Assembly: GCA_027315345.1 (NCBI GenBank)
Contig: DAHUYE010000067.1
Coordinates: 62,001-126,000 of the forward strand
DNA length: 64,000 bases
Origin: Actinomycetota bacterium
GTDB taxonomy: Bacteria; Actinomycetota; Acidimicrobiia; Acidimicrobiales; JAJPHE01
Direction: 5' to 3'
A program made the position numbers and the translations under genes. Below, one piece after another: positions 7,073 through 26,456 of the stretch (its first letter is position 1; every line of letters starts with the position of its first letter). Below the pieces are notes generated by a model. The model saw only the letters and a list, made by a program, of their open reading frames with translations. It ran no database searches and had not been told where the DNA came from.

Positions 7073-10452
<3,380 letters not shown>

Positions 10453-10469
10453 GCCCCGGCGCACCGAAT

Positions 10470-10491
10470 CTCCGGGCCGAAGCGGCCGGAG
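10470..10491. terminator. Hairpin between convergent genes
   Basis: CTCCGG (10470-10475) and CCGGAG (10486-10491) pair, and CCG-AAG-CGG inside the loop extends the stem with one bulged G. It lies between the ends of the ftsB-like gene and the zinc dehydrogenase, so it could terminate both. There is no T-tract. Confidence 0.5.
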
Positions 10492-10498
10492 GCGGCGG

Positions 10499-11548
10499 CT
10501 AGGGGGTTACGACGATCTTGCAGTGCTGTTCCGGATCCCCCAGGGCGTCGAAGGCCCAGCCCACCTGGTCCAGGCCGACCTCGGCGGTGACCAACGGCGC
10601 CACGTCGATGTCCCCCTCGGCTATGGCCCGCAGCGACTCGGCAAACTCGGCCGGTTCATAGCCCAGCACGAACTGCATGTTGAGCTCCTTGCTGATGCCG
10701 AAGAAGGGAGTGAAGGTGTCCGCCTCCATGCACACACCGACCACCACCACCCGGCTTCCGCCCGGGGCGCTGCGCATGATGTCGTTGATGATCCCGGGCA
10801 CACCGATGGCCTCGAAGATCACCGCGCTCCCGCCCCGGCCGGAGCGGGCCCAGGCCGCCCAGGCCGTCTCCTCCCGCGGATCGACCGTCTGGTGGGCACC
10901 CAGGCGCTGGGCCAGATCCCGCCGGGCCGGTGAGAAGTCGGCGGCCAGGATGTGACCGACCCCCTTCATGCGCAGAGCGGCGATCACCGACAGACCCACC
11001 GGCCCGCACCCGAGTACCACGGCGGCTTCGCCCGGGCCGATGTTCGATTTGTTGACGGCGTGCAGGCCGACCGCCATCGGCTCGGTCAGAGCGGCGCGCG
11101 AGGCGTCGAGGCCGTTGGGCACCGCCAGCAGCATGAAGGAACTGAGCAGCATGCGCTCGGCGTAGCCGCCGATGGTGGTGTTGCTGTAGACGATGGGCTC
11201 GATACCACCGGGACCGAAGAGAATCGGGATGGACGTCACCAGCGAACCCGGTCCAAGTGGGCTCTCGGTGTCCGGTCCCACCTCCAGCACCTCGGCGGCG
11301 AACTCATGACCCATGAACACGTCGCGGTCCAGATCCAGACCGAGGGCGAGGCCGGCACTGGTTATCCCGCCCGAGGTCATCTCCGCCCCCAACTCGAGCA
11401 TGCGCCGTCCGTGCTTGGCGAAGTGGAGATCGGAGCCGCAGATGCCGCAGGCCTTGACCTGGACCAGCACCTGGTTCTGGGCCGGCACCGGCTCGGCCAC
11501 ATCGTCGCGGAGCACCATCCGTCCGTGATCGAGGACTGCGGCTTTCAT
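10499..11548 (-). CDS. Zinc-binding dehydrogenase (MDR family)
   Basis: NAD(P)-dependent alcohol dehydrogenase of the medium-chain family, 349 residues. The catalytic zinc region CGICGSDLH lies near 35-43, GHEFAAEV near 80-87, and the Rossmann motif VLGCGPVGLSVIA near 177-189. The four-cysteine structural zinc lobe of classical alcohol dehydrogenases is missing; that stretch is replaced by a Gly/Ile/Pro-rich loop. It is the last gene of a three-gene minus-strand operon after a monooxygenase and an epoxide-hydrolase-like protein, so oxidation of a hydroxylated or diol product is likely. The substrate is unknown. Confidence 0.9.
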   Translation of the reverse strand: MKAAVLDHGRMVLRDDVAEPVPAQNQVLVQVKACGICGSDLHFAKHGRRMLELGAEMTSGGITSAGLALGLDLDRDVFMGHEFAAEVLEVGPDTESPLGPGSLVTSIPILFGPGGIEPIVYSNTTIGGYAERMLLSSFMLLAVPNGLDASRAALTEPMAVGLHAVNKSNIGPGEAAVVLGCGPVGLSVIAALRMKGVGHILAADFSPARRDLAQRLGAHQTVDPREETAWAAWARSGRGGSAVIFEAIGVPGIINDIMRSAPGGSRVVVVGVCMEADTFTPFFGISKELNMQFVLGYEPAEFAESLRAIAEGDIDVAPLVTAEVGLDQVGWAFDALGDPEQHCKIVVTP

Positions 11549-11558
11549 ATCTGCCTCC

Positions 11559-12533
11559 CTATAGGTGGGCGAGGAACTCGAGCAGGGCGGCGTTGACTTC
11601 GGCCGGCTTTTCCTGTTGAACCCAGTGGCCGGCGCCTTCCACCAGGACGCTGCCGCGGTGGTCCTCCAGCCATCCGTCCATGACGGCCGGGGGCATCATG
11701 ACCAGCACCGGGTCGGCCGAGCCGCCGATGAACAGCGAGGGCACCGTGACCTTGGCCCCTTCCAGCTGCGGGGTGGTCTCCCAGTTGCGATCCAGGTTCC
11801 GGTACCAGTTGATTCCGCCGGTAAACCCGGTGCGGGCGAAAGTGGACGAGTAGTGGTCGAGCTCAGCCTCCGACAGCCAGTCCGGCAGCCGCTCGGGCTG
11901 GTACAGCCGCTCGACAAAGCCCCGGCGGTCCTCGGTCCCGCCCGGGCCCATGCCGGCGCCGACCCCGGCCGGATCGCCCAGGCCGGCCAGCATCCCCCTC
12001 ATGGTCCGGGCCGGGTCGGCCCCCAGGTCGGCGTCGGCCACGCCGGGTTCCTGGAAGTACAGCATGTAGAAGAAGTTGTCCCCGACCAGCGCCCGCATGG
12101 CCTGCACCGGCGGCATGGGGCCGCGGGGCACGAAGGGCACGCTCATGCCCACCACGCCCCGCACCCGCTCCGGCGCCAGCAGGGCCAGCTGCCATACGAC
12201 CATCGAGCCCCAGTCGTGACCGATGAAGACGGCCTCGTCCTCGCCCAGGACCTCGAGTAGGCCGAGTAGGTCCCCGGTCAGGTGGGTGATGTCGTAGTCG
12301 GTGATGGAATCCGGCCGGCTGGAGCCGCCGTAGCCGCGCTGGTCGGGGGCCACCACCCGGTACCCGGCCCCGGCCAGGGCGGGGATCTGGTGGCGCCAGG
12401 AGTAACCCAGCTCCGGGAACCCGTGGGCCAGGATGACCAGCGGGCCCTCACCGGCCTCGGTCAGGGACAGTTCGATGCCGTTGACGGCCACCGTCCGGTG
12501 AGTGGCTCCGGGGATGACGGCGGCGTCAGGCAT
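11559..12533 (-). CDS. Alpha/beta hydrolase, epoxide hydrolase-like
   Basis: The 324-residue protein matches the epoxide hydrolase type of alpha/beta hydrolases: oxyanion-hole motif HGFPE at 37-41, nucleophile Asp107 in GHDWGS, and a C-terminal His in the GAGHWVQQEKP stretch near 300. An Asp rather than Ser nucleophile favours an epoxide hydrolase or haloalkane dehalogenase; the HGFPE motif and cap region favour the former. The start overlaps the stop of the upstream FAD monooxygenase by 8 bp, and the zinc dehydrogenase follows 10 nt downstream. It may open an epoxide made by the monooxygenase; this is inference. Confidence 0.9.
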   Translation of the reverse strand: MPDAAVIPGATHRTVAVNGIELSLTEAGEGPLVILAHGFPELGYSWRHQIPALAGAGYRVVAPDQRGYGGSSRPDSITDYDITHLTGDLLGLLEVLGEDEAVFIGHDWGSMVVWQLALLAPERVRGVVGMSVPFVPRGPMPPVQAMRALVGDNFFYMLYFQEPGVADADLGADPARTMRGMLAGLGDPAGVGAGMGPGGTEDRRGFVERLYQPERLPDWLSEAELDHYSSTFARTGFTGGINWYRNLDRNWETTPQLEGAKVTVPSLFIGGSADPVLVMMPPAVMDGWLEDHRGSVLVEGAGHWVQQEKPAEVNAALLEFLAHL

Positions 12534-13938
12534 GGATGGCCTGGAGGGCGTCGAGGAACTCGGTGCGGGTGGGCCCGACCCGCACGGGAGGTGGGTAGCG
12601 ATCCGGCTCGGCCAGCACGGCCGCCACCCGGGCGGTGTAGACGGGGTCGGCGGCCAGCTCGGCCGGGGTGGCGATGAGGTTCCACAGCTTGGCGAAGCCC
12701 CGGCCGAGGACGGGATCGGCGGCGGCGGCGGACAGGATGGTGGTCATCGGGTTGTTGGGATCGGCCGGGCCGGCGCTGAGGCCGGCCGGATCGGCGCCCA
12801 GCTTGTCCATCTGCACCGACAACTCGTACCACGGCGCCACCTGGCGGGCACAGGCCGCCTCGTAGGCGGTGGCCCGCCCCGCCGGGTCGCCCGGATGGGC
12901 GGCCATGGCATCGGCCAGCTCCACCGCCTCCACCAGGGCCAGGGCGCAGCCCCGCCCGTAGAGGGGGTTGGTGCAGGTGTGGGCGTCGCCCACGGCGTGG
13001 AACCCCAGGACGGTCGGGCGGCCCTGGTCATCGAGGTAGCGCCGGGCCCGGTTGACCAGGCCCGCCATCGGCCTCACTTCGCCCACCGGGCGCAGCGGGT
13101 ACCGGAAAAACTGATCCGGCCCGGGCAGGCGCCGGCATCCCTCCTCGAATCCGTCCGGGTCGGACAGGACCTGGCGCAGCTCCCGGTCCTCGGGGCGGAT
13201 GGCCAGGGTGATGGACAGGGTCCCGGCGTCACCGGGCACGCCCAGGTACTTGACGAAGCCGAGATCACCGCCGAGCTTGGCGTCGAGCTGGGCGATGTCG
13301 AACCCCTCGGGTAGCCGGTACCACCGGGACAGGTACATGAGCCCGCTCTCGTGCACCTCTTCGGGCACCTCGACCCCGACGGCGGCCAGCCAGGCCGGCA
13401 CGGCGTCCCGTCGCCCGGAGGCGGCCACCACCACGTCGGCCTCCACCTCGGTTCCATCGCCCAGGCGCACTCCCCGGATCACCGGCGCGGGTGCCTGCCC
13501 GGCCCCGGCCACCAGGCCGGCCACGGCCGTATCGGTCCGGATTTCGACCGAGGCCTCCTCCAGCACCGCCGAGCGCAGAACCCAATCCAGGGTGGTCCGC
13601 CGGGTGATCACCACCTCCAGGTCCTCGTCCCCGGGCTGGGGCTCCCCCAGATCGGCGGTGGTCGGCAGGCGCATGGCCCCGCGGGAGAGCAGCTCGGCCA
13701 GCACGTCCGGGAACCGCTGGCCCAGGACCACCTGGAGCCGGGCCAGGAACCCGTGGGTCTGATGGACCTGGGGGGCGCCCCGGCGGGGGGCCAGAAAGGC
13801 CTCCTCGGCATCGGCCCGGGCCGCCAGTGGGTCGCGCTCCAGGACGGTCACCGGGTGGCCGGCCCGCCCGAGAGCCAGGGCGGCGGCCATCCCGCCCATG
13901 CCCCCGCCCACGATGACCACCGATTCCCTGCCGTCCAC
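12526..13938 (-). CDS. FAD-dependent monooxygenase / epoxidase-like oxidoreductase
   Basis: The 470-residue protein begins with the FAD-binding Rossmann motif VIVGGGMGGMAAALALGRAG (8-27) and an acidic residue ending beta2 (LERD). It has the second FAD motif GDAHTCTNPLYGRG near 314-327, typical of group A flavoprotein hydroxylases and epoxidases. GTG 13938 is preferred because GGGGAG precedes it closely; the open frame runs 336 codons further without conserved sequence. It heads an operon with the epoxide-hydrolase-like and dehydrogenase genes and is divergent from the cox-type operon. The substrate is unknown. Confidence 0.88.
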   Translation of the reverse strand: MDGRESVVIVGGGMGGMAAALALGRAGHPVTVLERDPLAARADAEEAFLAPRRGAPQVHQTHGFLARLQVVLGQRFPDVLAELLSRGAMRLPTTADLGEPQPGDEDLEVVITRRTTLDWVLRSAVLEEASVEIRTDTAVAGLVAGAGQAPAPVIRGVRLGDGTEVEADVVVAASGRRDAVPAWLAAVGVEVPEEVHESGLMYLSRWYRLPEGFDIAQLDAKLGGDLGFVKYLGVPGDAGTLSITLAIRPEDRELRQVLSDPDGFEEGCRRLPGPDQFFRYPLRPVGEVRPMAGLVNRARRYLDDQGRPTVLGFHAVGDAHTCTNPLYGRGCALALVEAVELADAMAAHPGDPAGRATAYEAACARQVAPWYELSVQMDKLGADPAGLSAGPADPNNPMTTILSAAAADPVLGRGFAKLWNLIATPAELAADPVYTARVAAVLAEPDRYPPPVRVGPTRTEFLDALQAIHA

Positions 13939-14112
13939 GCCCGCTCCCCACGTCGGCCCGTTCACCCGGATGGTAACTGTCCACAGGATCCTCCTCAGCC
14001 GGCGGCGCTGAGCGGCTCGGCCGGGCCGGCGGGGCGCCCGCGCTACCCTCGGCTCGGCGTGTGGTCGGGGTGAGTCCGGGCCCGCCGGTAGCGAACCGTA
14101 CAAAGGGGTCGG
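13939..14112. promoter_or_regulatory. Divergent intergenic region, monooxygenase operon / coxL
   Basis: This 174-bp gap separates two divergent operons. On the + strand TACCCT (14044-14049) is a possible -10 box about 64 nt before the coxL ATG, and AAAGGGG before 14113 is the ribosome-binding site. On the - strand TACCAT lies about 35 nt before GTG 13938. No clear operator palindrome was found. Confidence 0.3.
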
Positions 14113-16382
14113 ATGAGCATCCTCGGTAACAGGGTCCTTCGCAAGGAGGATCCGAAGTTCCTCACCGTGGGCGGTACCTACGTGGACGACATCGGCCTGG
14201 CCGGGGCCCTTCACGTGGCCTACGTGCGCTCGACCTTCGCCCACGCCCGCATCCTTTCCATCGACACCGAGGAAGCCCGTAAGGCCCCCGGGGTGGTGGC
14301 CGTCTACACCGCCGCCGACGTGGACCTGGGCCCCCGCCCCCCCGAAATGCCGATGTTCAACCAGGCCATGACCCGCTCCCTGCTGGCCGATGACACGGTG
14401 CGCTTCGTGGGCGAGTGCGTGGCGGCGGTGGTGGCCGACACCCGGGCCCGGGCCGTGGACGCGGCCGAACTGGTCCAGATCGACTACGACCCGCTGCCGG
14501 CGGTGGTGGATGTGGAGACGGCGCTGAGGGACGAGACGCTCCTTTTTCCGGCGGCCGGGACCAACCTGGCCATGGACATGACCTTCGGCACCGATGAGCA
14601 CTTCATGGACGGATGCGAGGTGGTCGTCCGCCACCAGTTCCTCAACCACCGGGTGGCCCCTTGCCCCCTGGAGGTCAGGGCCGCCTCGGCGGAGTGGAGC
14701 CCGGAGGGCCGCCTGACCCAGTACTCGAGCACCCAGGCCCCCCACGGGGTGAAGTCGGGGCTGGCCGGGGCCCTGGCTCTCGACGAAGCCCAGGTGCGGG
14801 TGCTGTCCCCCGACGTCGGCGGCGGGTTCGGGGCCAAGATGGGCACCTATCCCGAAGAGCTGCTGGTGGCCTGGATGGCCCGCCGGCTGGGGCGGCCGGT
14901 GCGGTGGGTGGAGACCCGTTCCGAGTCGATGGTGGGCCTGGGCCACGGCCGGGGCCAGCTCCAGGAGGTGGAGATCGGCGGCAGCCGGGACGGCCGCATC
15001 CTGGCCTACCGGCTCAACGTCATCCAGGACGGCGGCGCCTATCCGGCCATCGGAGCCGTGCTGCCCTTCATGACCCGCACGATGCTCTCGGGCGTCTATG
15101 ACATCCCCAAGGTGGAGTTCAACAGCCGCTCGGTGGTGACCAACACCACCCCCACGGTGGCCTATCGGGGCGCCGGCCGGCCCGAGGCGACGGCGGCCAT
15201 CGAGCGGGTGCTGGACATGTTCGCCGCCGAGATCGGCATGGACCCGGCCGAAGTCCGACGCCGGAACCTCATCCAGAAGGACGCCTTTCCCTTCACCACT
15301 CCGACCGGGACCGTCTATGACATCGGGGACTACGTGCGGGCCCTCGATCTGGCCCTGGAGGCGGCCGATTACCCGGCGCTGCGGGCGGCACAGAAGCAGC
15401 GGCGGGAGTCGGGGGCGACCAAGCAGCTCGGCATCGGGCTGTCGGTCTACGTCGAGATCACCAACGGCATGCCCTCCAGCGAGTTCGGCGCCGTCGAGGT
15501 CCGCCCGGACGGGACGGTGGTGGTGCGCACCGGCACCTCACCCCACGGGCAGGGCCACGTCACGGCCTGGGCCATGCTCGTGTCCGAGCAGCTGGGCATC
15601 CCCATCGAGAGCATCGAGGTCGTCCACGGGGACACCGACGTGGTGCCCCGGGGTGTGGGCACCTTCGGGTCCCGCTCACTGCAGGCGGGGGGAGTGGCCG
15701 TGAACCAGGCCGCCACCGCCGTGGTGGAGCGGGCCCGCCAGCTGGCCGCCGACCTGCTGGAGGCCAACCCCGACGACGTCATCCTGGACAAGGTGGGCCA
15801 GCGTTTCCACGTGCAGGGGACCCCCGCCGCCGGGCGGAGCTGGAAGGAGTTGGCCGCCGAAGCCGAATCCCAGGGCGGGCTGACGGCCGAGGTGGACTTC
15901 ACCGCCCCCGGACCCACCTTCCCCTTCGGCGCCCATCTGGTGGTGGCCGAGGTCGACACCGAGACCGGCCTGGTGGAGATCAAGCGGATCGTGGCCGTGG
16001 ACGACGCCGGCAAGATCCTCAACCCGATGCTGGCCGAGGGACAGGTCCACGGCGGCCTGGCCCAGGGCGTGGCCCAGGCCCTGCTGGAAGAGGTCCGCTA
16101 CGACGAGGACGGGAACCCGGTCACGGCCAACCTGGCCGACTACGCCTTCGTGACCGCAGCCGAACTGCCCAGCTTCGAGCGCATCGCCATGGAGACGCCC
16201 ACCCCGGTCAATGAGCTCGGGGCCAAGGGCATCGGTGAGTCGGGCACCATCGGTTCCACCCCCGCCGTCCACAACGCCGTTTGTGACGCCCTGGTGCACC
16301 TAGGAGTGCGCCACGTACCCATGCCCACCAGCCCGCAACGGGTGTGGCGGGCCATCAACGAAGCCACCGGAAAGGCGAGTGC

Positions 16383-16386
<4 letters not shown>
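14113..16386 (+). CDS. Molybdopterin-binding large subunit, form II CoxL type
   Basis: Catalytic subunit of a xanthine-oxidase-family molybdenum hydroxylase, 757 residues, full length. The active-site loop reads AYRGAGR at 350-356, which marks form II CoxL; true form I CO dehydrogenase has AYxCSFR. The molybdenum-cofactor glycine loop GGGFGAKMG lies near 236-244 and the catalytic Glu709 in KGIGESG. Form II enzymes have mostly undefined substrates, so CO should not be assumed. A strong AAAGGGG site precedes ATG 14113. The stop is joined to coxS as ATGA, starting a nine-gene coupled or close-spaced operon. Confidence 0.95.
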
Positions 16387-16852
<466 letters not shown>

Positions 16853-16856
<4 letters not shown>

Positions 16857-17674
16857 TCCCCGCTGCCTTCGACTACGTGCGGGTCGACTCGGTCGACGCC
16901 GCCGTGGCCGCCCTCACCGAGCACGGGGACGACGCCAAGCTGCTGGCCGGGGGGCACTCGCTGCTGCCGCTCATGAAGCTGCGCCTGGCTTTTCCCTCCG
17001 TGCTCATCGACATCGGGCGTATCGAGGGCCTGTCCTACGTCCGCCAGGAGGGCGATCAGGTGGCCATCGGCGCCCTGACCCGCCACTGCGACGTCAACGC
17101 CTCCCCCGAACTGGCCCGACACGCCCCCCTGCTGGCCTATGTGGCCGGCAAAGTCGGCGATCCCCAGGTCCGCCACCGTGGCACCATCGGCGGTTCCATC
17201 GCCCACGCCGACCCCGCCTCCGATCTGCCCGCCGCCGTGCTGGCCCTGGGAGGCGAGATGGTGGTCACGGGTCCCTCGGGCCAGCGCGTTATCCCGGCCA
17301 CCGAGTTCTTCACCGGTTTCCTGGAGACGGCCATGTCGCCCGAGGAGATGCTGACCGAAATCCGGGTGCCCACGGCCACGGCCGGGCACTCCTACCAGAA
17401 GTTCGTGCGCCGGGCCCAGGACTGGGCCATGGTGGGCGTGGCCGTGGCCCGCTACGACGGCACCACCGGCGTGTCCCTGGTCAACATGGGCCCCACCCCC
17501 CTGCGGGCGGCAGCGGTGGAGTCGGCCCTGGCCTCGGGGGCCTCGGCGGCGGACGCCGCCGAAGTGGCCGATCAGGACAGCGAGCCGACCGGGGACGCCA
17601 ACGCCAGCCCCGAGTTCCGCCGCCACCTGGCCAAGGTGCTGACCCGCCGCGCCCTCGAAGAGGCCGGCCTCTGA
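16853..17674 (+). CDS. FAD-binding medium subunit of the molybdenum hydroxylase (CoxM type)
   Basis: Passes electrons from the Fe-S clusters to FAD and onward. The 273-residue protein has the two FAD loops of the family, AGGHSLLP near 32-39 and [16 protein letters not shown] near 111-126, and a C-terminal CO-dehydrogenase flavoprotein domain. Start at GTG 16853 overlaps the coxS stop (GTGA). Its own stop overlaps a CTG that appears to start the next gene (CTGA). Together with the two preceding genes it makes a complete heterotrimer. Confidence 0.95.
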
Positions 17675-18573
17675 GCCCGGCCGATCCGGAGGAGGTCCGG
17701 GCGGCCCTGGAGGCCCACGACTACTTCTCCGACGAAGGCCTGGCCACGGCCGTCTTCCTGGCCCTGCGCCTGCGCCGGCCGCTGTTCCTGGAGGGCGAGG
17801 CCGGGGTGGGCAAGACCGAGGTGGCCAAGGTGCTGGCCCGCTGGACGGGTGGGGAGCTCCTCCGCCTGCAGTGCTACGAGGGCATCGACGTGGCCCAGGC
17901 CGTGTACGAGTGGGACTACTCCCGCCAGCTGCTGCACCTCCGAGCCGCCGAGCTGGCCGGGACCGGTGCCGACGTGGCCGCCCGGGCCGAGGACGAGTTG
18001 TTCTCGGAGCGATTCCTCATCCGCCGTCCCCTGCTCCAGGCCATCGCCGATGCTGTCGATGACCGCCCTCCGCCCGTCCTGCTCATCGACGAGGTGGACC
18101 GGGCCGACGATGAGTTCGAGGCCTTCCTCCTGGAGATCCTCTCCGACTACGCCGTCACCGTGCCCGAGTTGGGCACCTTCACGGCGGCCGTGCCCCCGGT
18201 GGTGGTACTCACCTCCAACCGGACCCGGGACGTCCATGACGCCCTCAAGCGGCGCTGTCTCTACCACTGGGTCGAGCACCCCGACTTCGAGCGCGAGGTC
18301 CGCATCGTGCTGCGCCGGGTCCCCGAAGTGGAGGAGGGCTTGGCCCGCCAGGTGGCGGCGGCGGTCAGGAAGATGCGCGGTCTTGGTCTGTACAAGCCGC
18401 CCGGGGTGGCCGAGACCATCGACTGGGCCCATGCCCTGGCCATCCTGGGCCGGACCCGTCTGGACGAGTCGGTGGTCGACCGGACCCTGGGCACCGTCCT
18501 TAAGTACCGGGAGGATGCCGAGCGGCTCCGGGCCGGGGGCCTGGAGGACCTCCTCGAGGCGGCCGGTGCCTGA
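17671..18573 (+). CDS. MoxR/CoxD-like AAA+ ATPase, apparently starting at CTG
   Basis: CoxD-like ATPases help mature the active site of CO-dehydrogenase-type enzymes. The 300-residue product has Walker A GEAGVGKT (42-49), Walker [12 protein letters not shown] near 130-140, a sensor Asn in LTSNRTRD, and the MoxR C-terminal lid. The first in-frame ATG, GTG or TTG after the coxM stop lies inside Walker A, and none is available near the proper N-terminus. CTG 17671 forms a CTGA overlap with the coxM stop, and AGAGG at 17659-17663 lies 7 nt upstream. The start is therefore inferred as CTG. A VWA partner follows. Confidence 0.88.
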
Positions 18574-19795
18574 CGCCACTGACGCCGGGGGCGGGACCAG
18601 GGCCACTGGTCCGGCCGGTGAGGGCGCAGGCGCCGGCGCCGATGATCCGGCCCAGGCCCCGGCCCGGATGGCCGTCGGCTTCGCCCGGCTGCTGCGCCGT
18701 TCCGGGATGACGGTTCCCCTGGGCAGTGTGCTGGTCTTCGCCCGGGCCCTGGCCAGCGTGGGGTTGGAGTCCCGGCCCGGGGTCTACTGGGCCGGGCGGG
18801 CCACCCTGGTGCGCCGGCCCGAGGACGTGGCCGGTTACAACCAGGCCTTTGCCGTGTTCTGGCTGGGCCGGGACACCGTCCGGGTGTCGGTGCCGGCCCC
18901 GGAGACCATCGTCCAGTTCGACGATGAGGACGCCGAAGAGCCTCCCGACGACGCCGGCCAGGCAGTTGGGTCCCGTCCTGTGGTGACGGTGCGCTACAGC
19001 GCCACCGAGACCCTGCGCCACAAGGACTTTGCCGCCTCCAGCCCGGCCGAGCTGGACGAGACCCGCCGGCTGATGGCCGGTATGCGCCTGGAGACGGCGC
19101 CCCGGCGGACCCGCCGGCACCGGCGCTCCTCCCGGCGCTGGGGCCGGCCCGATTCCCGCCGCACCCTCCGCCTGGCCCTGCGCAGCGGCGGTGAACCCCT
19201 GCGGCGGGCCTTCATGGAGCCGGCCTGGCGGCCCCGGCGCATCGTGCTGCTCTGTGACATCAGCGGTTCGATGGACGCCTACGCCCGCAGCCTGCTGCGT
19301 TTCGTCCATGTGGCCGTGATGGGCCGCACCCCGGTGGAGGCCTTCGCCCTCGGCACCCGCCTGACCCGGATCACCCGGGAACTGTCCCGCCATGACCCCG
19401 ACGCCGCCATGGCCGCCGCCGCCGGGGCGGTGGAGGATTGGTCCGGGGGCACCCGGCTGGGCGAGGGCCTGTCGGCCTTCAACGACCGCTACGGCATCCG
19501 GGGCATGGCCCGGGGGGCGGTGGTGGTCATCCTCTCCGACGGCTGGGACCGGGGGGATCCGGCCCTGCTGGGCCGGGAGATGGAACGCCTGGCCCGGGTG
19601 GCGCACCGGATCGTGTGGGTGAACCCGCTCAAGGCCTCGCCCGGCTATGCACCCCTGGCCCGGGGAATGGCCGCCGCCCTCCCGTTTGTTGACCAACTGG
19701 TGGAAGGACATTCGCTGGCTTCGCTGGAGGCACTGGCCGAGGTGTTGGCCGAGGTTCCCGCCGGAGCCGGGGCCGGAAGGGCGGTGCCGAGGTGA
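18566..19795 (+). CDS. VWA domain-containing protein (CoxE-like)
   Basis: Partner of the MoxR/CoxD-type ATPase in maturation of molybdenum hydroxylases. The 409-residue protein has a variable Ala/Gly-rich N-terminus, a charged middle with an Arg-rich stretch near 180-200, and a CoxE-type VWA domain with the MIDAS motif DISGSM (D-x-S-x-S) near 231-236 and SDGWDRGD near 325. GTG 18566 is chosen because GAGG at 18556-18559 precedes it by 6 nt; it overlaps the ATPase gene by 8 bp. It is coupled to the next gene by GTGA. Confidence 0.88.
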   Translation: MPDATDAGGGTRATGPAGEGAGAGADDPAQAPARMAVGFARLLRRSGMTVPLGSVLVFARALASVGLESRPGVYWAGRATLVRRPEDVAGYNQAFAVFWLGRDTVRVSVPAPETIVQFDDEDAEEPPDDAGQAVGSRPVVTVRYSATETLRHKDFAASSPAELDETRRLMAGMRLETAPRRTRRHRRSSRRWGRPDSRRTLRLALRSGGEPLRRAFMEPAWRPRRIVLLCDISGSMDAYARSLLRFVHVAVMGRTPVEAFALGTRLTRITRELSRHDPDAAMAAAAGAVEDWSGGTRLGEGLSAFNDRYGIRGMARGAVVVILSDGWDRGDPALLGREMERLARVAHRIVWVNPLKASPGYAPLARGMAAALPFVDQLVEGHSLASLEALAEVLAEVPAGAGAGRAVPR

Positions 19796-20106
19796 AAGAG
19801 GTTCTGGGCGACATCGAGCGCTGGCGCCGGGCCGGCCGGCGGGTGGCCCTGGCCCGGGTGGTGGACGTGATCGGATCGGGTCCCCGCGACCCCGGGGCCA
19901 CCATGGCCGTGAACGAGGACGGCGAAGTAGCCGGTTCCGTCTCGGGCGGTTGCGTCGAAGGAGCGGTGCTGACCGAGGCCCTGGGCGTCCTGGAGGCAGG
20001 TGAGCCGCGGCTGTGCACGTTCGGATACTCGGACGAGGAGGCCTTCTCGGTCGGGCTCACCTGCGGGGGGACCATCCGGGTCTTCGTCGAGCCCCTCGAC
20101 TGGTGA
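19792..20106 (+). CDS. XdhC/CoxI domain protein, N-terminal part of a split XdhC
   Basis: XdhC-family proteins bind molybdenum cofactor and assist its sulfuration before insertion into the enzyme. This 104-residue protein is the stand-alone XdhC_CoxI domain, with ATMAVNEDGEVAGSVSGGCVEG near 36-57 and the conserved Cys-Gly-Gly in GLTCGGTIRVFVEP near the end. The Rossmann half is encoded by the next gene, whose GTG start overlaps this stop (GTGA). Split XdhC genes are known; the two products probably form one complex. Confidence 0.86.
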   Translation: MKEVLGDIERWRRAGRRVALARVVDVIGSGPRDPGATMAVNEDGEVAGSVSGGCVEGAVLTEALGVLEAGEPRLCTFGYSDEEAFSVGLTCGGTIRVFVEPLDW

Positions 20107-20972
20107 GCCTGTACGAGGCCGTCCGGGACGCCATCCGGGCCGAGGAAGAGGTGGTCATGGCCACCCTGGTGGAACTGACCGACCCGGCCGAGTGGGAGAT
20201 TCCCCCGGCCGGGGGAGAGGTGCTGCCCCGGGTGGGGGCCAAGATCGTGGTCCGTCCCGGCCAGCTCCCTCTGGGGACCACCGGGGATGCCGACCTGGAC
20301 CGGGTCATCGCCCGGGACGCCTGGGCCGCCCTGGAGTCCGGGCTGACCGGCACCCGCCACTACGGCCGGCACGGGCAGGCCAACCAGCGGGAGGTGGTCG
20401 TCTTCGTGGAGGCCTTCGCCCCGCCGCCCCTGATGGTGATCTTCGGGGCGGTGGATTTCACCGCCGCCCTGGCCCGGGTGGCCAAGATCCTGGGCTACCG
20501 GGTGGTGGTCTGTGACGCCCGGCCCGTCTTCGCCACCCCGGCTCGCTTCCCCGAGGCCGATGAGGTGGTGGTGTCCTGGCCCGACCGCTACCTCGACACC
20601 ATCGCCGGCCAGCTCGGGCCCCGGGACGCCGTCTGCGTGCTGACCCACGATCCCAAATTCGACATCCCTGCCATCGTGGCCGCTCTGCGGACCCGGGTCG
20701 GCTACCTCGGAGCCATGGGGTCGCGCCGGACCCACGCCGAGCGCACCGCCCGCCTGCTGGAGGCGGGAGTGGTCGAGTCCGACCTGGTCCGGGTCATGGG
20801 TCCCATCGGCCTCGATATCGGGGCCAGGACCCCGGAGGAGACGGCCATCTCCATCTGCGCCGAGATAATCGCCTTGCGGGTCGGCGGGCCGGGACCGGCC
20901 GGGGTCACCTCCCTGCGGGACTCCCGGGGCCCGATCCACCAGGACGCGGTCGCGCTCTCTGGGCCAGACTGA
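20103..20972 (+). CDS. XdhC Rossmann-domain protein, C-terminal part of a split XdhC
   Basis: The 289-residue product carries the XdhC C-terminal Rossmann domain: LMVIFGAVDFTAAL near 111-124, VCVLTHDPKFDIPAI near 178-192 and YLGAMGSRRTHAERTARL near 203-220. Its N-terminal 90 residues resemble another XdhC_CoxI-like segment without the Cys-Gly-Gly motif. GTG 20103 overlaps the previous stop. It ends 6 nt before the cyclase fusion gene. Role in cofactor maturation follows from the family and the operon. Confidence 0.88.
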   Translation: MSLYEAVRDAIRAEEEVVMATLVELTDPAEWEIPPAGGEVLPRVGAKIVVRPGQLPLGTTGDADLDRVIARDAWAALESGLTGTRHYGRHGQANQREVVVFVEAFAPPPLMVIFGAVDFTAALARVAKILGYRVVVCDARPVFATPARFPEADEVVVSWPDRYLDTIAGQLGPRDAVCVLTHDPKFDIPAIVAALRTRVGYLGAMGSRRTHAERTARLLEAGVVESDLVRVMGPIGLDIGARTPEETAISICAEIIALRVGGPGPAGVTSLRDSRGPIHQDAVALSGPD

Positions 20973-20978
20973 GGGCCC

Positions 20979-22520
20979 ATGGACACCGATCCCGGCGCCG
21001 GAGCTCCCGAGGAGCGCGTCTCTGACGACCAGCGGGCCCAGGTGGTGGAACTGCTTCGCACCCACACCGCCGACGGACACCTGACCCTGGACGAGTTCTC
21101 CGAGCGGGTCGGTGTGGCTTTGGCCGCCCAGAATCGGGCCGACCTCGACCAGGTCATGGTGGGCCTGCCCGCCATCGAGACCGGGGGCCCGCCGGCCCCT
21201 TCCACCCGACGGGCCCGCATGACCCGGTGGGTGGTGGCGGTGATGGGCGGGAACGGCCGCAAGGGGCGCTGGCGCACCGGGTCCCACGTGACGGCGGTGG
21301 CGGTCATGGGTGGCTGTGAGATCGACTTCCGCCAGGCCGAGTTCGAAAGCGACGAGATCGTGGTCACGGCCGTGTCGATCATGGGCGGCATCAGCATCAT
21401 CGTGCCCGAGGGGATCGCGGTGGAGATGACCGGCTTTCCCATCATGGGGGGCAAGAACCTCAAGGTGGCCGACGTCCCGGTCATACCCGGCTCGCCTCGC
21501 ATCGTGGTGCGGGCCTTTCCGGTCATGGGCGGCGTCGATGTGCGTTCCAAGCCGGTGCGCACGCCCAAGGAGACCCGGGCCGTGCTCAAGCGGACGGCCA
21601 CCAATCTGCTCCGGGAGATGGCCGCCGGTGAGGCGCCGGCCGCCGCCCTGCCGGTGGCCGGGGCCGAGTTGCGCGACGCCGTCCTGCGCCAGGTCAACGA
21701 CCGTGTGGCCCGGGAGCTGGAGAAGGTCGAGCGCCGCAGCCAGCGCCGCGGCGGTGGTCCGGTTCGCCATCGTGGACACCTCCATGACCAGACGGCGCCG
21801 GACCGGCTACCCCGACCCGGGCCCCGCTTCGGGCCCGGACCGGATCTGCGCACAGGACCGCACGCCAAGGGCGAGAACTTTGCCGGGGTGTGGGTGCCCG
21901 GCATCGGGACCTACGGGCTGCGCTGGGGCATGGAGCTTGAACAGGGCGAGGACAGGACCCTGCCGGACGAGACGGAACTGTCCTCGGTCCCGGCTGCTCC
22001 GGACGGGACCGTGACCATCCTGTTCTCGGATGTGTGCGGCTATACCGAGATGACCGAGCGGCTGGGCGACCGGGCCACCCACGAGCTGCTCAAGTCCTAT
22101 CAGCAGATCGTCCGGGGTCAGCTGGCCGCCTACGAGGGCTACGAGGTGAAGGTGCAGGGCGACGGGTTCATGGTCGCCTTTGCCGGAGCATCCCGGGCCC
22201 TGCGCTGCGCCATAGCCATCCAGCGGGCCACCGATGACTGGTGCAAGGAGCACGCTGAGCCCATCAAGATCCACCAGGGCCTCCACACGGGCGAGACGGT
22301 GCGCGAGAGCGGGGACTTCCTGGGCCGGACAGTCATTCTGGCCAGCCGGATCACCGGGGAGGCCACCGAATCGGAGATCCTGGTCTCCTCTCTGCTCAAG
22401 GAGCTGGCCGGGGCGACCGGTGAGTTCCGCTTCGGGGAGGCCCGGGACGTGACCCTCAAGGGCGTGACCATCCCCCAGACCGTCTATCCGGTCGAGTGGC
22501 GCGCCCACAGCCCGGCGTGA
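20979..22520 (+). CDS. DUF1707 / repeat / class III nucleotide cyclase fusion
   Basis: Unusual 513-residue fusion. Residues about 14-63 form a DUF1707 domain. Residues 84-190 contain five [V/I]MGG motifs (88, 109, 134, 155, 182), resembling the LiaF-like C-terminal cell-wall-stress fold. After a basic linker (about 195-340), residues 345-508 form a class III adenylate/guanylate cyclase domain. It keeps metal ligands Asp351 and Asp395 and the adenine-selecting Lys391. The usual transition-state Asn (VNLAAR) is Ile453 in VILASR; Arg457 is kept. Activity may be weak or lost. No membrane helix is apparent. It is embedded in the cox-type operon. ATG 20979 has GAGGG just upstream. Confidence 0.88.
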   Translation: MDTDPGAGAPEERVSDDQRAQVVELLRTHTADGHLTLDEFSERVGVALAAQNRADLDQVMVGLPAIETGGPPAPSTRRARMTRWVVAVMGGNGRKGRWRTGSHVTAVAVMGGCEIDFRQAEFESDEIVVTAVSIMGGISIIVPEGIAVEMTGFPIMGGKNLKVADVPVIPGSPRIVVRAFPVMGGVDVRSKPVRTPKETRAVLKRTATNLLREMAAGEAPAAALPVAGAELRDAVLRQVNDRVARELEKVERRSQRRGGGPVRHRGHLHDQTAPDRLPRPGPRFGPGPDLRTGPHAKGENFAGVWVPGIGTYGLRWGMELEQGEDRTLPDETELSSVPAAPDGTVTILFSDVCGYTEMTERLGDRATHELLKSYQQIVRGQLAAYEGYEVKVQGDGFMVAFAGASRALRCAIAIQRATDDWCKEHAEPIKIHQGLHTGETVRESGDFLGRTVILASRITGEATESEILVSSLLKELAGATGEFRFGEARDVTLKGVTIPQTVYPVEWRAHSPA

Positions 22521-22571
22521 GTTCCGGCTCCCCAGGGTGAGTCCCCTCTCTTCCCTGACCGACCGGCAGCC

Positions 22572-23132
22572 TTGACCCGCGCCGCCGTCATCCTGGCCGC
22601 CGGAGGAGCCAGCCGCTTCAATGGTCCCGGTCACAAGCTGCTGGCCGAGTGGAGGGGCCGGCCCCTGGTGACCTGGGCGGTGGACAACGCCCTGGCTGCC
22701 GGACTGGACGAGACGGTGGTCATCTCCGGGGCCGTGGATCTGAGCGAGGTGCTGCCCGAGGAGGTGACGTTGATCGAGAATCACGCCTGGTCCTCGGGTC
22801 AGGCCTCCTCGCTCCAGGTGGCGGTGGGCTGGGCCCGCCACCAGGGTCACGTCGCCATCGTGGTCGGCCTGGCCGACCAGCCCCTGGTCCCGCCCGAGGC
22901 CTGGTCAACGGTGGCGGCGGAAACGTCCAAGCCGATCGTGTCGGCCACTTTCGAGGGCCGGCGCCGCCCGCCGGTCCGCCTGGACCAGTCCATCTGGGGC
23001 CTGCTGCCGGTGGACGGGGACGAGGGCGCCCGGGTGCTGATGTCGGCGCGGCCGGAACTGGTGGCGGAGGTAGCGTGCCCGGGCCAGCCGGCCGACGTAG
23101 ACACGGTGGAGGATCTGTCCCGATGGAGTTGA
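22572..23132 (+). CDS. MobA-like NTP transferase (MocA-type candidate)
   Basis: The 186-residue protein has the nucleotidyltransferase signature LAAGGASRFNGPGHKLLAEWRG (split as LAAGGASRF at 8-16 and KLL near 21-23) and the metal-binding GLADQP near 97-102. These features place it with MobA/MocA enzymes that attach CMP or GMP to molybdopterin. Xanthine-oxidase-family enzymes use the cytosine dinucleotide form, so a MocA-like role for the CoxLSM enzyme is likely. The start is TTG 22572. It overlaps the coxG start by 10 bp. Confidence 0.88.
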   Translation: MTRAAVILAAGGASRFNGPGHKLLAEWRGRPLVTWAVDNALAAGLDETVVISGAVDLSEVLPEEVTLIENHAWSSGQASSLQVAVGWARHQGHVAIVVGLADQPLVPPEAWSTVAAETSKPIVSATFEGRRRPPVRLDQSIWGLLPVDGDEGARVLMSARPELVAEVACPGQPADVDTVEDLSRWS

Positions 23133-23857
23133 CCAATGAGTTCCGAGTGTCGGTCCCGGTGGAGCAGGCCTGGGCGGTGCTGACCGACCTGGAGCGGATC
23201 GCCCCCTGTATGCCGGGGGCCGAGCTCCAGGAGGTCGAGGGCGATGAGTACCGGGGCATCGTCAAGATCAAGGTCGGGCCCATCACCGCTCAGTACAAGG
23301 GCAAGGCCAGCTTCGAGGAGCTTGACGCCTCCTCCCACCGGGCCGTGCTGCGGGCCGAGGGGCGCGATACCCGGGGTCAGGGCAACGCCTCGGCCACGGT
23401 CAAGGCCGAGCTGACCCAGGAGGCCGGCGGGACGGCCGTGCGGATCACCACCGATCTGGCCGTGACTGGGAAGGTGGCCCAGTTCGGCCGGGGCGTCCTG
23501 GCTGACGTGAGCGCCAAGCTGCTGGCCCAGTTCGTGGCCCGGCTGGAGGCCGACGTGCTGACCGGGGTCTCCCCGGCCGGAGCGCCGCCGGCCACGGAAG
23601 CCGCCGCCACCCCCGCTGCCACCGACGCGCCCCCTGTCGCCAACGTGGCGCCCGGGGCCGGGACGCCCGCCGCCACCCCCGCCACCCCCGCCGCCGAGGC
23701 GCCCGCCGCTGCCGGGCCTCGGATCATCCACTCCGCTCCGGCTGAGCCGGTCAATCTGCTCGAGGCGGCCGGCGGGTCGGTGACCAAGCGTCTGGTGCCC
23801 GTCGGTCTCGGCCTCATGGTCCTGCTCATCCTGTGGCGGGTGCTGCGGCGGGGATGA
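23123..23857 (+). CDS. CoxG-like SRPBCC protein with C-terminal membrane anchor
   Basis: CoxG proteins help attach CO-dehydrogenase-type enzymes to the membrane and its quinone pool. The 244-residue product has an SRPBCC domain (about 1-145, with NEFRVSVPVEQAWAVLTDLERIA split around residues 5-27), an Ala/Pro/Thr-rich linker (about 150-215) and one C-terminal membrane helix (about 222-238) ending in RRG. ATG 23123 follows GGAGG at 23108-23112. It is the last clear gene of the operon. Role is by family and context. Confidence 0.88.
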   Translation: MELTNEFRVSVPVEQAWAVLTDLERIAPCMPGAELQEVEGDEYRGIVKIKVGPITAQYKGKASFEELDASSHRAVLRAEGRDTRGQGNASATVKAELTQEAGGTAVRITTDLAVTGKVAQFGRGVLADVSAKLLAQFVARLEADVLTGVSPAGAPPATEAAATPAATDAPPVANVAPGAGTPAATPATPAAEAPAAAGPRIIHSAPAEPVNLLEAAGGSVTKRLVPVGLGLMVLLILWRVLRRG

Positions 23858-23902
23858 AGCGCTCCTACCGATGAGCGCCTCGTCCCTTTGGGTCCCGACC
23901 GG

Positions 23903-24373
23903 ATGACGGACCCGCCTGAGGCGGCCGACACGCGGGTCACCGACTTGCTGGGCCGTCGCCCGACGGTGAACTACCAGGTGGTCCTCACCGATGCCGACGG
24001 CTCCCCCGTCGTCATCCGCAACGACCCGCTCACCCACGACGGCCGGCCCATGCCCACCCGCTACTGGCTGGTCGGGACGGCCCAGCGGTCCGCCGTCAGC
24101 CGGATCGAGTCCGAAGGCGGGGTCAAGCGGGTCGAGTCAGAGGTGGATCCCTCCGAGTTGGAGGACGCGCACCGCCGCTACGCCGCCGAGAGGGACGCCG
24201 CCATCCCGCCGGATTGGGAGGGGCCGCGGCCATCCGGTGGAGTGGGTGGCACCCGCCGGGGTGTGAAGTGCCTGCACGCCCATTACGCCTGGTTTCTGGC
24301 CGGCGGGGATGACCCGGTGGGCCGCTGGGTAGCCGAGCGCCTGGCCGGGGCGGGCGAGGTGAGCCGACCGTGA
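23903..24373 (+). CDS. DUF501 family protein
   Basis: The 156-residue protein shows the DUF501 pattern: early VTDLLGRRPTVNYQVV, PMPTRYWLVG near 50-59, and RGVKCLHAHYAWFLAGGDDPVG near 124-145 with conserved Cys and His residues. Its function is unknown. It normally lies between an FtsB/DivIC-like gene and ppx in Actinomycetota; here only the ppx side is kept. ATG 23903 is chosen over TTG 23888. It is joined to ppx by GTGA. Confidence 0.86.
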   Translation: MTDPPEAADTRVTDLLGRRPTVNYQVVLTDADGSPVVIRNDPLTHDGRPMPTRYWLVGTAQRSAVSRIESEGGVKRVESEVDPSELEDAHRRYAAERDAAIPPDWEGPRPSGGVGGTRRGVKCLHAHYAWFLAGGDDPVGRWVAERLAGAGEVSRP

Positions 24374-25272
24374 CCGGACCGGTGGCCGCTATCGACTGCG
24401 GAACCAACTCCACCCGCCTGCTGATCGTGGACGGGTCCGGAGCGACCCTGGACCGCCGGATGCTCATCACCCGCATGGGTGACGGCGTCGACCGGAACCA
24501 TCGCCTGGCCCCGGAGGCCATCGACCGCACCCTGACCGCGCTCGGGGAGTACGGGGCGGCCATGGATGTGCTGGGGGTCGGACGCCGCCGGGCGGTGGCC
24601 ACCTCGGCGGCCCGGGATGCGGACAACCGGGAGGACTTCCTGGCCGCGGCCGAGGCGGTCATCGGTGTTCGCCCGGAATTGATCTCCGGACAGGAGGAGG
24701 GCGCCCTCTCCTACGCCGGGGCCACTGCCGAGTTGGATCCCTCGGCGGGCCCGTACCTGGTCCTCGACATCGGGGGCGGTTCCACCGAACTGGTCCTGGG
24801 GGACCGGGCCGTGTCCCTCGATATCGGCTGCGTGCGCCTGTCGGAGCGGTTCTTCCATGACGACCCCCCGCTCACGGATCAGCTTCGGGCGGCCCGGGAT
24901 CTGACGGCTGAGATGCTGAGCACGGCCCGGGAAGTCCTCGGTGATCCACACCAGACCGGCCGGCTGATCGGACTGGCCGGCACCGTCAGTACCGCCGCCA
25001 TGATCGACGCTGGTTTCACCACCTACCGACGCCAAGACCTGCACCACCGGGTGCTGGGCCGGGAAGGGGTGCGGCGCATCCTGGGGTCCCTGGCCGGGAT
25101 GGATCACGACCACCGGGCCGCCGTCCCGGGCCTGGAGCCGGGCCGTGTGGACGTGATCCTGGGCGGCCTGCTCATCCTGCTCACCGTGATGGAGGATTTC
25201 GACTTCGGGGAGTGCCTGGTCTCGGAGTCGGACATCCTCGATGGCATGGCCGCCCGCCTGCTGGCTGACTGA
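24370..25272 (+). CDS. ppx: Ppx/GppA-type exopolyphosphatase
   Basis: Hydrolyses terminal phosphates of polyphosphate or (p)ppGpp-type nucleotides. The 300-residue length fits the short actinobacterial form lacking the extra C-terminal domain. The ASKHA phosphate loops DCGTNSTRLLIVDG (9-22) and LDIGGGSTELVLGD near 133-146 are intact, and QEEGALSYAG carries the catalytic Glu near 113. GTG start overlaps the DUF501 stop. Substrate preference cannot be read from sequence. Confidence 0.93.
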   Translation: MTGPVAAIDCGTNSTRLLIVDGSGATLDRRMLITRMGDGVDRNHRLAPEAIDRTLTALGEYGAAMDVLGVGRRRAVATSAARDADNREDFLAAAEAVIGVRPELISGQEEGALSYAGATAELDPSAGPYLVLDIGGGSTELVLGDRAVSLDIGCVRLSERFFHDDPPLTDQLRAARDLTAEMLSTAREVLGDPHQTGRLIGLAGTVSTAAMIDAGFTTYRRQDLHHRVLGREGVRRILGSLAGMDHDHRAAVPGLEPGRVDVILGGLLILLTVMEDFDFGECLVSESDILDGMAARLLAD

Positions 25273-25287
25273 CTGGCCGTCCGCTTC

Positions 25288-25343
25288 GGTACGCGCCGTA
25301 CCTATCCCGGGGCCGGGCCCCCGCCCGGGTCGGCCGTTAGGCT
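25288..25343 (+). promoter_or_regulatory. Inverted repeat and leaderless-type -10 box before the aminotransferase
   Basis: GGTACG-CGC-CGTACC (25288-25302) is a perfect 6-bp inverted repeat. TAGGCT (25338-25343) lies exactly 6 nt before GTG 25350, the spacing expected for a leaderless transcript in actinobacteria. A GC-rich hairpin (GGGGCC-G-GGCCCC region, about 25309-25321) between them may terminate ppx. No ribosome-binding site precedes the GTG. Confidence 0.5.
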
Positions 25344-25349
25344 CGACCG

Positions 25350-26456
25350 GTGGTCGTAAGCGACAGGATTCTGATGGGCCCGGGGCCCTCGAACATCTAC
25401 CCGGAGGTGGCCATGGCCCTGCAGCGACCGCTGCTCGGCCACCTGGATCCGGACTTCCTGGAGATCCTGGATCAGACCTGTGAGCGGCTGCGGACCGTGT
25501 TCGGGACCGACAGCGCCGCCACCTTGCCTCTGTCGGGCACCGGGTCGGCCGGGATGGAGGCTGCCTTCGTCAACTTCGTCGGTCCGGGCGACGCGGTGGT
25601 CGTGGGAGTGAACGGGCTCTTCGGTGAGCGCATGTGCGACGTGGCCGGCCGCTGCGGAGCCGAGGTGGTCCGGGTCGAGGCGGAGTGGGGTCAGCCCCTC
25701 GATATCGACCGGGTGCTGTCGGCCCATCCTGCCCCGAAGCTGGTGGCCGCCGTGCACGCCGAGACCTCCACCGGGGTGCGCAACGACATAGCCGGTCTGG
25801 CCGCCGGTAAAGGTGAGGCTCTGCTGCTGGCCGACTGTGTCACCTCCTTGGGCGGCATCGAAGTCCGCCTGGATGAGTGGGGCGTGGACATCGCCTATGC
25901 CGGAACCCAGAAGTGCCTTGGCGTACCGCCGGGGCTGGCCCCCTTCACCGCTTCCCCGCGGGCTATGGAGCGAAGAGTCGAGCATCCCCAGTCCTGGTAC
26001 CTGGATCTCGGCATGCTGGCGGCCTACACCGGTCCTACCTCCGGCCCCGCCGCCCGCCGCTATCACCACACCGCCCCGGTCACGATGATCATGGCCCTCC
26101 ACGCCGGCCTCGGCGCCGTGCTGGACGAGGGGCTGGAGGTCGCCATTGACCGGCATCGCAAATGCGGTGCAGCTCTCCAGGAGGGCCTCACCAAGCTGGG
26201 CTTCGAGTTGTTTGCCGCCGACGGTCATCGGCTGCCGGAGTTGACCACCGTCACCTGGCCGGAACACCTCCTGCCGGCCGGCCTGGACGAGGCGGGCGTG
26301 CGCCGCCGCCTCCTCCATGAGTACGGCATCGAGATCGGCGGCGGGGTGGGGGAGTGGGCCGGCCGGATGTGGCGGATCGGCTGCATGGGCCATACGGCCC
26401 GGCCTCGCAACGTGACCATGCTGCTCGGCGCCCTGGCCGACATCCTCGGCCGTTGA
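25350..26456 (+). CDS. Class V aminotransferase, alanine-glyoxylate/serine type
   Basis: PLP-dependent aminotransferase of 368 residues. It starts like serine-glyoxylate and alanine-glyoxylate aminotransferases (MGPGPSNIYPEV near 9-20). The PLP lysine is Lys188 in AGTQKCLGVPPGL, with the cofactor Asp in LLADCVTSLGG near 160. A C-terminal Arg in MWRIGCMGH should bind the substrate carboxylate. Likely amino donors are Ala or Ser, with glyoxylate as acceptor; the exact pair is uncertain. GTG 25350 is supported by a leaderless-type TAGGCT box. The stop overlaps the GNAT gene as TTGA. Confidence 0.9.
   Translation: MVVSDRILMGPGPSNIYPEVAMALQRPLLGHLDPDFLEILDQTCERLRTVFGTDSAATLPLSGTGSAGMEAAFVNFVGPGDAVVVGVNGLFGERMCDVAGRCGAEVVRVEAEWGQPLDIDRVLSAHPAPKLVAAVHAETSTGVRNDIAGLAAGKGEALLLADCVTSLGGIEVRLDEWGVDIAYAGTQKCLGVPPGLAPFTASPRAMERRVEHPQSWYLDLGMLAAYTGPTSGPAARRYHHTAPVTMIMALHAGLGAVLDEGLEVAIDRHRKCGAALQEGLTKLGFELFAADGHRLPELTTVTWPEHLLPAGLDEAGVRRRLLHEYGIEIGGGVGEWAGRMWRIGCMGHTARPRNVTMLLGALADILGR

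Follow-up and report, generated by a model that had tools for sequence, protein, structure and literature searches.

The 64,000-nucleotide stretch of DNA that was analysed (the window) contains a gene in which a DUF1707 domain and a Toastrack-like β-solenoid are joined to a class III nucleotide cyclase, and this gene lies inside a form-II cox operon. The parts of this fusion are known but their combination is new, and the tie of the gene to the cox enzyme is real yet non-exclusive. With a little more confidence than doubt, it is read here as a Toastrack-gated adenylyl cyclase without membrane spans that is co-expressed with the form-II cox enzyme in one clade. The gene and its parts are as follows.

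20979..22520, + strand: fusion gene of 513 aa, DUF1707, MGG β-solenoid (Toastrack-like), linker and class III cyclase (ORF, Pfam and relatives)
21015..21170, + strand: DUF1707 (SHOCT-like) domain, aa 13-64 (PF08044, E 7e-17)
21222..21551, + strand: MGG-repeat β-solenoid, aa 82-191, of LiaF-like_C/Toastrack type (PF09922, AlphaFold, 4QRK match)
21567..21749, + strand: helical segment, aa 197-257, a possible coiled coil joining sensor and cyclase (AlphaFold helices H197-216 and H225-257)
21750..21983, + strand: disordered linker, aa 258-335 (pLDDT mostly <50)
21993..22499, + strand: class III cyclase catalytic domain, aa 339-507 (PF00211; Ma1120 match)

The open reading frame at 20979-22520 on the + strand is a single frame with an ATG start, a TGA stop and zero internal stops, and the same fused architecture was recovered in 27 further aligned sequences (28 with the window gene), so that the fusion is no chance read-through. 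The AlphaFold model, for which the 28 natural sequences served as input, contains confident folds at about aa 13-60, 82-192 and 340-507. For three closely related pairs, dN/dS amounts to about 0.07-0.19 in the front end and the cyclase folds alike, which shows that both folded domains are under purifying selection, and is much higher in the linker; aa 258-335 are the fastest-evolving part of the protein and differ in length among relatives. An artefactual fusion is ruled out by the 28 aligned fused sequences together with the purifying selection on both domains, and the architecture proposed in the sequence-only reading, a DUF1707-MGG-repeat-class III cyclase fusion, is thus borne out by Pfam, AlphaFold and the 27 additional sequences. 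No membrane span is evident in the fusion protein, the best 19-residue hydropathy mean being 1.8, inside the β region. The fusion is the sole DUF1707 gene of this genome, and literature searches found no paper joining DUF1707 or Toastrack with a cyclase.

The DUF1707 domain (PF08044, aa 13-64) scores 61.6 bits against a curated cut-off of 27.6, with an E value of 7e-17, and is predicted by AlphaFold to form three helices (H16-31, H37-49 and H53-59). It is followed by the β-solenoid at aa 82-191, which is all-β with pLDDT mostly >90 and in which the motif MGG recurs at about aa 90, 111, 136, 157 and 184; LiaF-like_C (PF09922) matches aa 103-158 with 28.3 bits, just below its cut-off of 29 (E 2e-6). 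Since cyclases dominated the fold search with the full-length model, the front end was modelled and searched by itself, and its top PDB match was 4QRK, which has a right-handed β-helix fold, the match being weak (E 0.036, probability 0.97, TM score only 0.33); a sequence search of the PDB with the front end gave nothing useful. 4QRK is one of the two structures given for the 'Toastrack' domain in a study of the PSP stress network (PMC11237479), in which Toastrack unifies DUF2154, DUF4097 and DUF2807, the DUF1707-like part is named the SHOCT-like domain and the two are proposed to form a sub-membrane signalling platform; the word cyclase is absent from the main text of that study. The present protein resembles the DUF1707-Toastrack proteins of the PSP/Lia network (PMC11237479) in that a Toastrack-type β domain comes after a bi-helical SHOCT-like domain, but differs from them in being fused to a class III cyclase. 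Stand-alone DUF1707-Toastrack forms occur in Streptomyces, in Frankia and in the same cox slot in relatives. The similarity to the C-terminal domain of LiaF, just under the PF09922 cut-off, does not extend to the rest of that system: the fusion has no N-terminal membrane spans like those of LiaF, no sufficiently strong hydrophobic stretch being present outside the β region, and there are no LiaRS neighbours. At one locus (L036/L056, 2459-4391) a stand-alone DUF1707 gene and, after it, a fused one form a tandem pair.

The operon around the gene comprises the following features.

14113..16386, + strand: coxL, form-II type, with AYRGAGR at 15160 (domain search, motif)
16386..16856, + strand: coxS, 2Fe-2S subunit (Pfam)
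16856..17674, + strand: coxM, FAD subunit, start approximate (Pfam)
17674..18573, + strand: CoxD-like AAA ATPase, start approximate (Pfam)
18572..19795, + strand: CoxE-like VWA protein, start approximate (Pfam)
19792..20106, + strand: short XdhC_CoxI protein, 104 aa (Pfam; the two-gene XdhC arrangement is also found in relatives)
20103..20972, + strand: XdhC Rossmann protein (XdhC_C), start approximate (Pfam)
22572..23132, + strand: MocA-like molybdenum cofactor cytidylyltransferase, NTP_transf_3 (Pfam)
23129..23857, + strand: CoxG-like protein (Pfam)
23888..24373, + strand: DUF501 protein, first gene of the conserved right flank DUF501-ppx (synteny in relatives)

All genes from coxL to CoxG, the fusion included, lie on the + strand, the XdhC stop ends 6 nt upstream of the fusion ATG, and no promoter- or terminator-like site was found within 20400-23200, although this is a weak test. 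The proposed location among the maturation genes of a molybdenum hydroxylase in a cox-type operon was confirmed, with XdhC upstream and the MocA-like gene downstream. CoxL carries AYRGAGR, the motif of form II, and lacks the form I motif AYXCSFR (PMC4053681). For form-II cox enzymes CO has been doubted as the substrate or the function found unproven (PMC6794299, PMC4053681); as the present enzyme belongs to form II, 'cox' need not mean CO oxidation here. The locus resembles other form-II cox operons in its AYRGAGR motif and in the homologues of coxLSM, CoxD, CoxE, XdhC, MocA and CoxG present in order, and differs from them by the inserted cyclase gene. An order-wide gene order was observed, enolase-FtsB-[form-II cox cluster]-DUF501-ppx-aminotransferase (8480-26456 in the window; also L032, L033, L035, L163, L187, L189 and L205), so that the form-II cox molybdenum hydroxylase operon is lodged within a housekeeping interval. 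Five loci (L181, L183, L188, L196 and L204) contain two form-II coxL genes each, with AYRGAGR found twice.

The fusion occupies the slot between XdhC and MocA of a form-II cox operon in 12 genomes from six families, and the labels of the matching contigs point to Acidimicrobiales. The distance between the fusion and XdhC was measured at ten loci. At seven of them the two genes are separated by 4-6 nt or overlap by 4 nt, at two the gap is longer, and at the remaining locus, whose start codon is uncertain, there is an overlap of 20; at most of these loci the genes are close enough for translational coupling. In the protein tree of the cox locus, for which 11 of these 12 were used, all 11 fused loci fall on one side of a branch with 100/100 support, and the three front-end-only loci fall on the opposite side. 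Over 11 loci, pairwise distances of the front end correlate equally well (r 0.77) with those of XdhC-CoxE-CoxD and with those of MocA-CoxG, and less with those of DUF501-ppx (r 0.41). The simplest reading of these comparisons is long vertical retention at the slot with some losses; depending on the root of the tree, the cyclase may have been gained or lost. A purely accidental position in one genome is ruled out by the slot in 12 genomes, the tree and the kept gaps.

At other loci the front end alone (DUF1707-MGG without a cyclase) is found directly before mocA or near DUF501-ppx (L045, L046/L207, L171 and L047). In addition, the XdhC-MocA gap of other relatives holds unrelated genes (L179, 8832-10838; L190, 1147-4767; L193, 3985-5283; L194, 10389-11612), which were named by eye from their translations as dihydroxy-acid dehydratase-like, acyl-CoA dehydrogenase-like and PAS histidine kinase-like. 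The presence of front-end-only or unrelated genes in this gap indicates that the slot tolerates insertions.

The principal alternative is that the fusion is a general-purpose adenylyl cyclase, responding to energy or envelope status, which by chance is carried in a housekeeping interval that is both busy and conserved and owes its expression to read-through, its cAMP not being specific to cox; we consider this a serious possibility, at about one chance in three. It draws on the unrelated inserts in the slot and on the distribution of the gene in 397 sampled genomes, in which coxE was counted at E 1e-60 and counts were taken by hand. The DUF1707-MGG module is present in 46 of these genomes and a coxE match in 247, a minority of which carry the gene; within the order, the gene is missing from most of the cox loci that were sampled. 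Fused genomes have a coxE match no more often than the background (16/23 against 231/374, p 0.5), and seven of the 23 have no coxE match at E 1e-60, several of these being incomplete; for the DUF1707-MGG module in general the association with coxE is weak (36/46 against 211/351, p 0.02, uncorrected for kinship). Fused genes elsewhere adjoin unrelated housekeeping genes (threonine dehydratase, RNase E/G with L21, and Glu-tRNA synthetase), and no shared theme was found among the nine neighbours of non-cox fusions that were scanned. In one genome (G005) the fusion lies between enolase-FtsB and DUF501-ppx with zero cox genes there, and in another (G063) it adjoins DUF501-ppx on a short contig. A strict partnership with cox is ruled out by the fusions away from cox and by the fused genomes without detectable coxE. 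Against a mere hitch-hiker stand the same orientation, the direct adjacency to xdhC and mocA and the 4-6 nt gaps or short overlaps, all kept across families, as well as the distances of the fusion, which follow the cox genes better than ppx. In the front-end tree, in which support is mixed, fusions away from cox branch from within the cox-linked ones, a pattern that would suit later moves out of cox.

The sequence-only reading had stated that the position would be accidental if related genomes carried the cyclase gene away from cox clusters, and the outcome is divided: the slot is kept in 12 genomes, but many fusions lie off cox. Likewise, the search for the architecture and the inspection of neighbours that it recommended revealed a cox slot recurring in six families, but also that most cox loci are without the gene. 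No clear fusion was found outside the order in a phylum-wide sample of 396 genomes. Two loci with Frankiaceae/Frankiales labels (L063 and L069) carry fused genes that nest among Acidimicrobiales-type sequences, and these represent either transfer or mislabelled MAGs.

The catalytic domain is matched by Guanylate_cyc (PF00211) at aa 339-496 with an E value of 1e-15, above the curated cut-off, and among solved structures it comes closest to Ma1120 from Mycobacterium avium (4wp3, E 1e-32). A Foldseek comparison of the AlphaFold cyclase with Ma1120 (4wpa) gave a TM score of 0.96 by target length and an rmsd of 1.4. The catalytic residues were assigned by alignment as follows.

22029..22349, + strand: active-site codons D351 and D395 (metal), K391 and D446 (ATP-type), I453 (Asn position) and R457 (alignment of 28)

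By alignment, K391, D446, I453 and R457 correspond to K101, D157, A164 and R168 of Ma1120, respectively. The two enzymes are alike in the catalytic fold, the metal Asp pair, the ATP-type Lys/Asp, the catalytic Arg and a transition-state position that is not Asn; their catalytic domains are about 36-39% identical, and they differ in that the cyclase in the Ma1120 structures lacks a DUF1707-Toastrack front end. D351, D395, K391, D446 and R457 are invariant among the 28 fused sequences wherever the letters are readable. At the transition-state Asn position the gene in the window has Ile, and 26 of the 28 sequences carry Ile, Val or Thr there; Asn is kept only in L040 and L165, both of which adjoin DUF501-ppx without cox. 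Ma1120, where Ala naturally takes the place of this Asn, is nevertheless an active adenylyl cyclase, and replacement of this Ala by Asn causes a drastic drop in its activity (PMC4215837). The transition-state Asn is thus not strictly defining for class III cyclases, and the case for a dead cyclase on the grounds of the missing Asn is weakened. By its residues the cyclase domain looks catalytically competent, and because the catalytic residues are conserved and Ma1120 is active with Ala, activity on ATP, i.e. that of an adenylyl cyclase, is our best guess.

It is improbable, in our estimate, that the domain instead binds a nucleotide as a non-cyclising regulator and that the protein serves, via its Toastrack part, as a scaffold for molybdenum enzyme assembly. 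The replacement of the transition-state Asn would fit such a role, as would the front-end-only loci directly before mocA, where the cyclase is dispensable to the front end, but the five invariant residues, the low dN/dS of the cyclase and the activity of Ma1120 argue against it. A Pycsar-like anti-phage cyclase is very improbable and was rejected, as PycC profile matches are weak (best E 1.7e-7) and far exceeded by the Ma1120 match, the neighbours are molybdenum enzyme maturation genes (XdhC, MocA-like) with no Pycsar effector gene beside the cyclase, and the locus is part of a vertically inherited synteny.

Other cyclases related to this domain were also observed. A protein 56% identical in the catalytic domain (L038, about 8757-9866) lies away from the cox operon of its genome (G027) and has hydrophobic stretches at its N-terminus in place of DUF1707-Toastrack. 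Near relatives of the cyclase domain in mycobacteria, Chloroflexi and others (L083-L116) are preceded by a kinase-like stretch, which lies about 3 kb upstream with a spacing that hardly varies, and the two may belong to one long multidomain protein.

In the favoured reading, that of a Toastrack-gated adenylyl cyclase, a class III catalytic domain would be under the control of an N-terminal SHOCT-like and Toastrack module, and the fusion would be expressed as part of the form-II cox operon. The DUF1707-Toastrack part may anchor the protein in a complex beneath the membrane or sense the state of that complex, and the helical linker may relay the state of the front end and so set the cyclase homodimer on or off. 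cAMP would then be produced in step with cox expression and may act via a CRP-type regulator. This genome has five class III cyclases, the fusion and four others, and three cNMP-binding proteins, one of which has a CRP-like C-terminal region with a helix-turn-helix by eye and is the one candidate for such a regulator. Expression of the cox enzyme would in this clade be tied to a cAMP signal, and the module presumably also works without cox in other relatives, cox being one home of the module and not its definition. A stronger version, a dedicated cAMP circuit for molybdenum-hydroxylase production in which Toastrack reads the XdhC/MocA machinery or the membrane-docked enzyme and cAMP sets cox expression, seems unlikely to us.

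In conclusion, this analysis describes a predicted second-messenger enzyme whose input module is defined and testable and belongs to a poorly understood class, DUF1707/Toastrack. Relatives provide a natural experiment, in which one and the same cox slot holds the fusion, holds only the front end or is empty. If the cyclase answers to the cox machinery, this would be, as far as we have found, the first cAMP link described for a form-II cox operon; if it is not linked to cox, it would still be a span-free protein in which Toastrack input could be read out as cAMP.
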